Of a stretch of 64,000 bases of DNA, positions 19,507 to 58,483 are shown piece by piece. The stretch covers positions 2,480,001-2,544,000 of the forward strand of contig NZ_LR134289.1 in assembly GCF_900636535.1 (NCBI RefSeq), in the 5' to 3' direction. The notes beneath the pieces were generated by a model. It was not told the DNA's origin. It saw only the letters and a list, made by a program, of their open reading frames with translations, and made no database searches. Each line of letters begins with the position of its first letter. Positions within the stretch are counted from its first letter, which is position 1. This DNA comes from Chryseobacterium gleum. Its GTDB lineage: Bacteria; Bacteroidota; Bacteroidia; Flavobacteriales; Weeksellaceae. A program made the position numbers and the translations under genes.

Positions 19507-19516
19507 TTAAAAAAAA

Positions 19517-19843
19517 TCACGAGAAAATCTATAAGCCGGATTCTGTACTTCCGGAGAAGCGCCTGTTATTTATCTGCGTGTTACATTGCTGCAACACTTG
19601 AGCTGATTACCCCTCGGTTTTCAGGACGAGCCGCCCCTATTTTCATTACTGAAAAGAACCGATATACTTACCATTGCACCGCAAAGAGTTTACCTGGTTT
19701 CACTACAGCCGAACTGTACCTGCTTTCTGTTGCACTTGTCCTACCCTCACGGGTGACGGATGTTATCCGCTTTGCTGCTCTGTGGTGTCCGGACTTTCCT
19801 ACCTCCCGTAAAACGGGAAATCAACAGGCCGATTTTCTCGCGG
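19517..19843 (-). ncRNA. rnpB: RNase P RNA (class A)
   Basis: RNA component of RNase P, which cleaves 5' leaders from tRNA precursors. On the minus strand the universally conserved GAGGTAGGAAAGTCCGGAC region is followed by ACCACAGAGCAG near the 5' end. Internally there is CAGGTAAACTC and near the 3' end ACAGAATCCGGCTTAT. The P1 helix is visible as CGCGAGAAAATC at the 5' end pairing with GATTTTCTCGTG at the 3' end. A T-run follows the 3' end. Boundaries are set by P1 and are accurate to a few bases. Protein-like frames across it are not genes. Confidence 0.97.
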
Positions 19844-56818: not shown

Positions 56819-56950
56819 ATGAAAACATATACCGAAAAACAGAGTATGAACCCAGCTGTATTAACTTCATACAAACTAATGAAGAAAATAATAAAATACA
56901 GTTTGTACATTCTGATCTTCTATTTTGCTGTAAAGGGATTTATGGCATGA
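56819..56950 (+). CDS. Small hypothetical membrane protein
   Basis: A 43-codon frame, MKTYTEKQ to FAVKGFMA. The N-terminal half is polar; the C-terminal half (KKIIKYSLYILIFYFAVKG) looks like a single membrane helix. It begins 11 bases after the quinone reductase stop. It may be a real microprotein of that operon. The evidence is its clean composition and spacing only. Confidence 0.45.
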   Translation: MKTYTEKQSMNPAVLTSYKLMKKIIKYSLYILIFYFAVKGFMA

Positions 56951-56994
56951 AATTAGCTTCAGAAATCGCAAGTAAAATTGTTTTGAACCATTAT

Positions 56995-57081
56995 TTTAAG
57001 CCATTAAGATTGATGGATGGTTAAGTTTTTCTTTTAAAACAAATCTTGTTATAACCCTGCAATGCGTCTTAATGGTTTAAA
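56995..57081. repeat. 15-bp inverted repeat with a 57-base loop
   Basis: TTTAAGCCATTAAGA (56995-57009) and TCTTAATGGTTTAAA (57067-57081) are complementary with one G-U. It lies upstream of the tyrS leader. It may be a dispersed spacer element or an RNA hairpin; no T-run follows. Confidence 0.5.
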
Positions 57082-57105
57082 TATTGGCTTCACAGGTAAA
57101 TCCTG

Positions 57106-57113
57106 TATATTGG
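57106..57113 (+). promoter_or_regulatory. Possible promoter of the tyrS leader
   Basis: TATATTGG matches TAnnTTTG at seven of eight positions. A TTG at 57084-57086, 19 bases upstream, fits the -33 position. Transcription would start just before the leader ORF ATG at 57121. Confidence 0.45.
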
Positions 57114-57120
57114 CATCACA

Positions 57121-57219
57121 ATGAAACATCTGAACAGTATATTACGTCTTCCATTCTTCAGTGAATATTACACTCCGGACTACCGTTCGGGAAGACTTTC
57201 TATATCTGTAATCCAATAA
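57121..57219 (+). CDS. Tyrosine-containing leader peptide of tyrS
   Basis: A 32-codon frame. Residues 12-22 read FFSEYYTPDYR, with three Tyr codons (16, 17, 21) and two adjacent Phe codons. It ends 21 bases before a strong intrinsic terminator that lies directly ahead of tyrosyl-tRNA synthetase. The Tyr codons are placed so that a ribosome stalled at codons 16-17 would cover 57174-57180 (region 1 of the attenuator) and leave 57185-57191 free. A leader-peptide function is inferred from layout. Confidence 0.65.
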   Translation: MKHLNSILRLPFFSEYYTPDYRSGRLSISVIQ

Positions 57220-57263
57220 AATAATCTACGTATATATAGAGCCCGGACAGTACCTGTCCGGGC
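57174..57263 (+). promoter_or_regulatory. Predicted ribosome-mediated attenuator of tyrS
   Basis: Four pairing segments: region 1 TCCGGAC (57174-57180); region 2 GTTCGGGA (57185-57192); region 3 GCCCGGACAG (57241-57250); region 4 CTGTCCGGGC (57254-57263). Regions 1 and 2 can form a hairpin with a TACC loop and one bulge. Region 2 (GTTCGGG) can instead pair with CCCGGAC of region 3, 7 bp with one wobble, excluding the terminator. Regions 3 and 4 form a 10-bp terminator with a TAC loop followed by TTTTCATTTT. The last hairpin ends 23 bases before tyrS. Confidence 0.65.
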
Positions 57264-57286
57264 TTTTCATTTTAAAACTATTCAAC

Positions 57287-58483
57287 ATGATTCATTCATT
57301 ACAAGAAAATGCGGCCATCATCCTTCCGGAAAACGGTCTCGAAGAAAAGCTTAATCAGGCAAAAAAAGAAAACAGAAAACTTTCTGTCAAACTGGGATTT
57401 GATCCCACCGCTCCCGATCTTCATCTGGGACATGCGGTCGTATTGAAAAAACTGAAGCAATTCCAGGATCTGGGACATCAGATTATTATAGTCGTGGGAA
57501 GCTTTACAGCAAGAATTGGTGATCCTAGCGGAAAAAATAAAGCTAGAAAACCCTTAAGTGCAGAAGAGGTACAACATAATGCACAGACTTATATCAATCA
57601 GCTTTCCAAAATTATTGATGTTCGGAAAACAAAGATTGTGTTCAATTCAGACTGGCTGGATACACTTAATTTTTCAGATGTCATCCAGCTGCTTTCAAAG
57701 GTCACGGTAGCTCAGCTGATGCACCGTAATGATTTTAATAAAAGGTTTACTGAGAATACGCCTATTGCCATGCATGAACTGGTATATCCTATTCTTCAGG
57801 GCTATGATTCCGTAAAAATTGAGTGTGACATTGAAATGGGCGGCACAGACCAGCTTTTTAACTGTACAATGGGAAGGCAGCTTCAGGAAGTCCACCAGAT
57901 GCCTGCTCAGATTGTGATGTGCATGCCATTGCTGAGAGGTCTTGACGGAAAAGAAAAAATGAGCAAATCCCTGAACAATATTATCGGGCTTACAGATGAA
58001 CCCAATGAAATGTTTGGAAAAACAATGTCAATTCCAGATGCTTTGATTGAAGAATTTATCAACCTGACCACTGATTTTTCCCCGCAAGAAAAAGCAGAGC
58101 TTCTGTTCAGGATGGCAGAGGGTGAAAATCCTATGAATATTAAAAAAATCATTGCAAAAAACATTATTACGCAATATCATAATAGCACTGCAGCAAACCA
58201 GGCGGAACAGTTTTTTATCACTCAGTTTCAGAATAAAAATTTTGAAGAAAAAGAATACCAATCCATCCCTATCAACTCTTTGAGTATTGACAACAAAATT
58301 TCCCTTGTGAAACTTTGTCATCAACTAAAGAATGACCTCAGCAAATCTGCTATACGGAGATTAATTGAAAACGGAGGAGTTCAAATCAATAATAGTAAAA
58401 TAACAGATTCCAGCGAAGAGTTGGAGCTGATTCCTGGAACAAAAATAAAAATTGGAAAAAGAAGCTTTTTTGAGCTAGTGTAG
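57287..58483 (+). CDS. tyrS: Tyrosyl-tRNA synthetase, type 2 (KMSKS form)
   Basis: A 398-aa class I synthetase that charges tRNA-Tyr. It has HIGH as HLGH (46-49, in DPTAPDLHLGHAVV) and KMSKS as KEKMSKSLNN. An S4 RNA-binding domain closes the protein (AIRRLIENGGVQINNSKI). The exact KMSKS and the DPTAPDLHLGH loop fit the type 2 subfamily (TyrZ-like) rather than type 1, which has KFGKS/KFGKT. Preceded by a leader ORF and attenuator. It may be the only or an additional TyrRS. Confidence 0.95.
   Translation: MIHSLQENAAIILPENGLEEKLNQAKKENRKLSVKLGFDPTAPDLHLGHAVVLKKLKQFQDLGHQIIIVVGSFTARIGDPSGKNKARKPLSAEEVQHNAQTYINQLSKIIDVRKTKIVFNSDWLDTLNFSDVIQLLSKVTVAQLMHRNDFNKRFTENTPIAMHELVYPILQGYDSVKIECDIEMGGTDQLFNCTMGRQLQEVHQMPAQIVMCMPLLRGLDGKEKMSKSLNNIIGLTDEPNEMFGKTMSIPDALIEEFINLTTDFSPQEKAELLFRMAEGENPMNIKKIIAKNIITQYHNSTAANQAEQFFITQFQNKNFEEKEYQSIPINSLSIDNKISLVKLCHQLKNDLSKSAIRRLIENGGVQINNSKITDSSEELELIPGTKIKIGKRSFFELV

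Follow-up and report, generated by a model that had tools for sequence, protein, structure and literature searches.

A predicted tyrosine leader-peptide attenuator ahead of an accessory tyrosyl-tRNA synthetase gene in Chryseobacterium gleum

The tyrS2 locus and the distribution of its enzyme

In the 64,000-nt stretch of Chryseobacterium gleum DNA analysed here (the window), the gene tyrS2 is preceded by a short leader ORF and by an intrinsic terminator ending 23 nt before its ATG at 57287 (Table 1). The earlier note, made from the letters of this stretch, had described a 32-codon ORF with three Tyr codons, three pairing regions and a 10-bp terminator at this distance, and all of these were recovered at the same positions. 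The window baseline consisted of 61 mechanically called ORFs of at least 120 aa with 260 nt of upstream sequence. By a strict rule, a terminator was detected within 140 nt upstream of 3/61 of these ORFs, a short Tyr-Tyr ORF was present within 260 nt upstream of 3/61, and tyrS2 was alone in having both together. The arrangement of leader and terminator ahead of tyrS2 was confirmed to exceed chance.

Rfam was compared with the window at gathering score and with positions 56950-57400 at E values up to 5. No family reached its cut-off for the leader, the best match being His_leader with 22.7 bits against a cut-off of 49, and neither comparison gave a T-box. The only family that passed the gathering score anywhere in the window is a bacterial RNase P class A RNA on the minus strand (19516-19840).

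Table 1. Coordinates of the features at the tyrS2 locus, numbered from the first letter of the window.
Feature	Position	Strand	Observation or basis
Predicted Bacteroidota-type promoter: TTGG 57084-57087, -7 box TATATTGG 57106-57113	57084-57113	+	
Predicted 5' UTR of ~3 nt, TSS near 57118	57118-57120	+	from box position
Leader ORF	57121-57219	+	32 codons, MKHLNSILRLPFFSEYYTPDYRSGRLSISVIQ; homologue at 110/110 tyrS2 loci
Segment P0, GTCTTCC	57146-57152	+	can pair with 57190-57196; weak
Tyr-Tyr codons 16-17, presumed stall site	57166-57171	+	invariant, 92/92 distinct leaders
Region 1, putative anti-antiterminator, TCCGGAC	57174-57180	+	leader nt 54-60
Third Tyr codon (codon 21)	57181-57183	+	read in sequence
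Region 2, antiterminator core, GTTCGGG	57185-57191	+	pairs with region 3
Second antiterminator helix, 5' strand TCTATAT	57199-57205	+	91.5% of cells paired
Second antiterminator helix, 3' strand ATATAGA	57234-57240	+	partner of 57199-57205
Intrinsic terminator stem-loop, 10-bp stem, then TTTTCATTTT	57241-57263	+	sequence; aligned leaders
Region 3, CCCGGAC, within terminator 5' arm	57242-57248	+	pairing analysis of aligned leaders
tyrS2, accessory tyrosyl-tRNA synthetase, 398 aa	57287-58483	+	NCBIfam TIGR00234

The product of tyrS2 matches TIGR00234 with 353.9 bits (cut-off 113.8), and DLHLGH and KMSKS can be read in its sequence. The controlled gene had been named tyrS in the earlier note; it does encode a tyrosyl-tRNA synthetase (TyrRS), but an accessory one and not the sole TyrRS of the cell. 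The other copy in the genome is 29% identical and also matches the NCBIfam tyrS model, and the nearest solved structures are 6bqy, 1h3e and 6byq for tyrS2 and 6n0w and 2ts1 for the other TyrRS. tyrS2 is an accessory TyrRS of another type than the housekeeping copy.

Within the genus, 46/148 genomes carry the low-identity TyrRS only and 102 match the tyrS2 type, one of these as a fragment. A close relative (>600 bits) was found in 15/296 genomes of the order, all in Chryseobacterium, and a protein search returned a 99% identical copy (P0004) from Chryseobacterium gleum. A TyrRS matching the tyrS2 type at E up to 1e-60 is present in 272/395 genomes of the phylum, the best match outside the genus among the phylum genomes being 47% identical. 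Many phylum genomes outside the order have a TyrRS of the tyrS2 type, and the sampled order genomes mostly have the low-identity type only; the housekeeping TyrRS may have been exchanged, which would account for this pattern. Two accessory tyrS copies contain an internal stop (G112:C3:249166-249429 and G138:C2:78413-79600), one of which comprises residues 1-88 only, with an assembly error being possible. These copies are in line with a dispensable gene.

Conservation, pairings and coding selection of the leader

Relatives were collected by a scan of genome contigs, from which the best 80 of 190 loci were used; another 30 loci, among them that of the window, came from whole genomes, for a total of 110 loci. 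Some genomes are represented in both collections. Removal of 18 exact duplicate leaders left 92 distinct leaders. The leader was present upstream of tyrS2 at 110/110 loci, among them loci of Chryseobacterium, Weeksella, Faecalibacter, Vaginella, Flavobacterium, Arenibacter, Gelidibacter, Oceanihabitans and Profundicola. The earlier note had proposed aligning the upstream regions in search of conserved Tyr codons, and these were found: codons 16-17 are Tyr-Tyr in all 92 distinct leaders. The third Tyr codon of the original description fared less well, since codon 21 is Tyr in only 55/92; codon 18 is Tyr in 31/92. Phe is present at codon 13 in 92/92 and at codon 12 in 90/92. Region 2 reads GTTCGG in 72 and GCTCGG in 20 of the 92 leaders and starts at zero-based nt 64 (69 leaders), 66 (21) or 63 (2), a near-fixed spacing after Tyr-Tyr. 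Two types of leader could be distinguished, a Chryseobacterium type and a Flavobacterium type, and in the TyrRS tree the two are separated by a single branch with moderate support (86/84).

The same features were sought ahead of other TyrRS genes. At housekeeping tyrS loci (own genome and 15 loci elsewhere in the order, with the nearest ATG taken as start), a Tyr-Tyr leader was present at 0/16 and a terminator alone at 2/16. At 27 distant loci of tyrS2 type (L164-L190, 44-47% identity), a short ORF with at least two Tyr codons was found at eight and Tyr-Tyr at none; a terminator was detected at 0/27 by the strict rule, which finds the terminator in 71/92 and the Tyr-Tyr ORF in 92/92 true leaders. 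Judged by these distant loci, the switch seems to be limited to the accessory TyrRS clade. A search model of the leader was built from the first 84 nt of 57/92 leaders and may miss divergent ones. It gave one strong copy in the own genome, with nine further weak matches at E up to 5; in 395 phylum genomes it gave three strong matches, all in Chryseobacterium, and 12 weak ones. Nineteen of these 21 weak matches were checked for the leader peptide pattern, 18 of them also by eye, and it was found in 0/19, compared with 92/92 true leaders. The cassette was probably transferred horizontally, judging by its patchy distribution.

A TAnnTTTG-like box precedes the ORF in 80/92 distinct leaders. With the rule that this box spans -12 to -5, taken from PMC9723704, a 5' UTR of 0-5 nt is predicted in 78 of these 80, which would leave the leader ORF with next to no untranslated sequence before it. 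The earlier note had named transcription starting beyond the terminator as evidence against attenuation; the promoter is instead predicted ahead of the leader ORF. According to the same paper, Bacteroidota are a group that lacks Shine-Dalgarno sequences and only 5.5% of Flavobacterium psychrophilum mRNAs are leaderless (PMC9723704). The promoter spacer contains an inverted repeat, ACAGG-TAAAT-CCTGT (57092-57106), and close relatives have similar spacer repeats with matched changes (CAGG/CCTG, CAGA/TCTG, ACGG/CCGT). Spacer-repeat arms of at least 4 were found in 66/92 leaders compared with ~33.5 in mononucleotide shuffles, and many of the repeats outside the close relatives are AT-rich. This repeat is possibly an operator.

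Pairings were scored in 71 Chryseobacterium-type leaders (71/72, L079 being omitted) and in 20 of the Flavobacterium type, using named structures drawn from single alignment rows, which favours them over slid controls. The terminator was paired in 97.9% of cells in the Chryseobacterium type (71 sequences) and in 99.0% in the Flavobacterium type (20 sequences), with two-sided changes in 21 cells vs 6.7 in shuffles and in 10 vs 3.7, respectively. The number of terminator pairs with a two-sided change (3 and 2, respectively) was not above shuffles; the excess is seen only in cell count and covariation score and is inflated by kinship. The core formed by regions 2 and 3 was paired in 100% of cells in the Chryseobacterium type, and in the Flavobacterium type the antiterminator was paired in 90.4% and its core in 98.6%. 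There were zero two-sided changes in this core within either type, because the core hardly varies, and for the whole antiterminator of each type, covariation was not clearly beyond shuffles. The pairing of segment P0 holds in 92.8% of cells (71 Chryseobacterium-type leaders) but shows no covariation beyond shuffles.

The hairpin of regions 1 and 2, as drawn in the earlier note, may apply to the Chryseobacterium type, where 89.2% of cells are paired, with invariance only at CCG/CGG and no two-sided changes. In the Flavobacterium type its place is taken by a different hairpin, which includes the Tyr codons (84.2% paired; two-sided cells 3 vs 1.3 in shuffles). Between the types, region 2 and the 5' and 3' arms of the terminator change jointly, for example GTTCGG/CCGGAC/GTCCGG or GTTCGG/CCGAAC/GTTCGG versus GCTCGG/CCGAGC/GCTCGG. 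As one branch of the TyrRS tree separates the types, this coordinated change may be a single event. The compensatory changes that had been anticipated for these segments were seen in part, in terminator cells above shuffles and in one clade-level change, but not in the antiterminator core. The duplex of region 2 with its own 5' arm has a mean of -16.2 kcal/mol, compared with -13.3 when arms were swapped between divergent species and -8.1 in shuffles, and the own duplex was stabler in 79% of 4712 swaps.

With Tyr 17 in the A site, the footprint of a ribosome would end at about nt 62, and this footprint was used to fold the leaders with a simulated stalled ribosome. With nt 1-62 hidden and the transcript ended after the 5' arm, region 2 is predicted to pair with this arm in 92/92 leaders, which agrees with the proposal that pairing of regions 2 and 3 excludes the terminator. 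Hiding all of nt 1-62 is generous, hence narrower footprints were also run: when the unpaired stretch was restricted to nt 31-62, 28-62 or 31-59 and the rest was free, the model again placed region 2 on the 5' arm in 92/92 and upstream in 0/92. With nothing hidden, the predicted partner of region 2 was upstream in 56/92 and the 5' arm in 31/92. In the full-length transcript, the terminator was the favoured fold in 91/92 leaders unhidden and in 92/92 with nt 1-62 hidden. Because the model favours the terminator at full length even with the footprint hidden, antitermination would have to be kinetic, as it is in known attenuators.

The leader ORF is a short ORF between a predicted promoter and a terminator and appears protein-like by pN/pS. 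Across codons 2-17, mean entropy is 0.88 at third positions, 0.28 at first and 0.20 at second positions. Pooled pN/pS of codons 3-15 is 0.15 in all 92 leaders, 0.077 in 38 equal-length Chryseobacterium-type leaders and 0.096 in 69 such leaders, with 0.043 at codons 8-13 (LRLPFF); tyrS2 itself gives 0.084 (codons 2-230, 18 loci). Beyond the Tyr codons the value rises to 1.16 (codons 18-31, 38 Chryseobacterium-type leaders), and shifted-frame controls for the leader gave 1.3 and 4.6. In four leaders (L010, L066, L068 and L078) the frame changes after the Tyr codons, yet region 2 is kept. As pN/pS is low before Tyr-Tyr and about 1 after it, selection on the ORF appears to act on the protein as far as the Tyr codons and on the RNA beyond them. 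By these comparisons, purifying selection on the part of the peptide preceding Tyr-Tyr is as strong as on an enzyme.

A His leader ahead of hisG was found at 29/30 loci of the genus (13/30 with a stricter rule). In the own genome this leader peptide, MKPTFLALHHYHHHLC (L207, about G000:C1:597645), lies upstream of hisG, and after it come AACCGTCT...AGACGGTT, which resembles a terminator, and a run of T; its predicted 5' UTR, by promoter box, is ~13 nt and longer than that of the tyrS2 leader. Codons 3-8 of the His leader, before His-His, have a pN/pS of 0.49 (six codons, 29 leaders). A Phe leader ahead of pheA was not credible, as a Phe-run ORF was present at only 3/30 loci, 894-900 nt upstream.

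Proposed mechanism and competing explanations

We consider the leader to be a ribosome-mediated transcription attenuator that senses the charging of tRNA-Tyr and controls the accessory TyrRS, with a probability of roughly 80%. The tRNA-Tyr attenuation reading of the earlier note is supported by sequence comparison, the comparative checks that it had proposed did not go against it, and we infer that tyrS2 would be induced when charged tRNA-Tyr is low. To this reading the present analysis would add the second TyrRS type, the second antiterminator helix, the short predicted 5' UTR and the selection on the peptide.

Transcription would begin just ahead of the leader ATG, by a few bases, so that the start codon could be bound by a ribosome on emerging. 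When Tyr-tRNA is scarce, we infer that this ribosome stalls at codons 16-17 with its footprint reaching to about nt 62, where it would hide region 1. The freed region 2 could then pair with region 3, aided by the helix 57199-57205:57234-57240, and this antiterminator would form before the 3' arm of the terminator is made, allowing RNA polymerase to read into tyrS2. When Tyr-tRNA is ample, the ribosome would pass, region 2 would be covered or folded back upstream, the terminator would form and tyrS2 would stay low. The presumed benefit is a reserve enzyme for times at which the main TyrRS is inhibited or cannot keep pace. It counts against an attenuator that the universal Tyr codons number only two, in tandem, and that the conservation of Phe-Phe at 12-13 comes close to theirs.

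This conservation of Phe (F13 in 92/92 and F12 in 90/92 leaders) could mean that Phe-Phe and Tyr-Tyr both stall the ribosome, so that the leader senses aromatic amino acids jointly. The controlled gene is, however, a TyrRS, and a stall at Phe would be expected to expose region 1 (nt 54-60) in the Chryseobacterium type, which makes joint sensing very improbable. An explanation that deserves more weight, but which we still regard as improbable, is arrest by the nascent peptide, in which LN(S/N)ILRLPFFS in the exit tunnel causes or sensitises the stall at Tyr-Tyr, and the leader acts as a peptide sensor of tyrosine, an analogue or another ligand, instead of or beside codon reading. The pN/pS of 0.043 at codons 8-13 and of 0.077-0.15 at codons 3-15, as tight as in the TyrRS (0.084), speaks for it, as do the value of 1.16 in codons 18-31 and the looser His leader of the genus before its His codons (0.49), but the His-leader comparison covers six codons in 29 leaders. 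The conservation of the peptide could also serve another need, and Tyr codons ahead of a TyrRS gene can be explained without arrest.

The same selection at the peptide level, together with the precedent of peTrpL/rnTrpL in Sinorhizobium (PMC7298713), could point to a leader peptide or short terminated RNA that acts in trans. We give this as little credence as joint aromatic sensing, since the leader lies directly upstream of tyrS2 at 110/110 loci, and the search model found a single strong copy of it in the own genome and strong matches in only 3/395 phylum genomes, all of this genus; an added role in trans is conceivable. That there is no regulation, the terminator simply ending the transcription unit upstream and the ORF being incidental, is hardly credible at all. 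Intergenic terminators are common, and 3/61 window ORFs have one upstream by the strict rule, but the ORF, Tyr-Tyr and the antiterminator are kept in 92/92 leaders and there is selection at the codon level.

For the attenuator itself, a contribution of the nascent chain may be considered. As the peptide is conserved like an enzyme and more tightly than the His leader of the genus, it is possible that the nascent peptide aids sensing. A hybrid sensor, in which the nascent LN-ILRLPFFS of a near-leaderless ORF tunes or causes the stall at the two Tyr codons and thereby switches on tyrS2, is a tentative idea that we think rather unlikely to hold as a whole. If it were true, tunnel arrest and tRNA charging would be read together, and the second TyrRS would rescue the cell by taking over from a failing or poisoned housekeeping TyrRS.

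Relation to known leaders and significance

In the trp, his and phe operon leaders of Proteobacteria, a hairpin of regions 1 and 2 competes with one of regions 2 and 3 and with the terminator. The tyrS2 leader would use the same pairing logic; unlike in those leaders, the peptide before its regulatory codons is strongly conserved, and its match to His_leader is below the cut-off. The nearest precedent for the logic is a Streptomyces system, for which Vecchione and Sello reportedly described, in 2010, ribosome-mediated attenuation of an auxiliary tryptophanyl-tRNA synthetase gene. It shares with tyrS2 a second, distinct aminoacyl-tRNA synthetase gene, a leader with codons for the enzyme's own amino acid and a terminator, and differs in the amino acid (Trp) and the phylum. 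No description of a Tyr leader ahead of tyrS in Bacteroidota was found among the papers listed by open-licence full-text searches, judged by titles and abstract starts; a 2010 study by Lopatovskaya, Seliverstov and Lyubetsky could hold a related prediction.

The earlier note knew of no described Tyr-specific leader attenuator in Flavobacteriia. None was found among the papers listed here either, but leader attenuation as such is not new to flavobacteria, as the genus has a His leader and strong clues of leader-peptide attenuation upstream of amino-acid biosynthesis operons are reported for F. psychrophilum in PMC9723704. Structured 5' UTRs on aminoacyl-tRNA synthetase genes are also reported there (PMC9723704), and tyrS is absent from the main text of that paper.

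In Streptomyces, the second TrpRS resists indolmycin, according to PMC9437257; the likeness of tyrS2 to it is in gene logic. The same paper describes tyrZ of Bacillus subtilis, which like tyrS2 is an auxiliary TyrRS beside a housekeeping one with separate regulation (PMC9437257). The regulation of tyrZ involves a MarR regulator and a T-box riboswitch (PMC9437257), whereas tyrS2 has a leader peptide and no T-box match. The upstream ORF uORFC-8-2 ahead of cysS in Rhodobacterales, as presented in PMC8632094, resembles the tyrS2 leader in being a short ORF with tandem cognate codons at ~14-15, followed by a terminator and an aminoacyl-tRNA synthetase gene. It differs in amino acid (Cys) and class (Alphaproteobacteria), cysS is not described as accessory in the section on this motif, and the likeness is one of description. 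In Sinorhizobium trpL, the leader ORF starts at the very 5' end of the RNA (PMC7298713); the tyrS2 leader ORF would lie near the 5' end, as predicted from the promoter only, not exactly at it, and would read Tyr and not Trp.

To summarise, the class of mechanism is known; what is unexpected is the gene, a patchily distributed second TyrRS, and the leader peptide conserved like an enzyme. Bacteroidota gain a well-supported and testable case of leader-peptide attenuation of an aminoacyl-tRNA synthetase gene. The patchy second TyrRS is probably marked by this leader as inducible, which bears on the response to TyrRS inhibitors. The leader also raises the testable question of whether the nascent chain contributes to the sensitivity of attenuators that have been assumed to read codons only.
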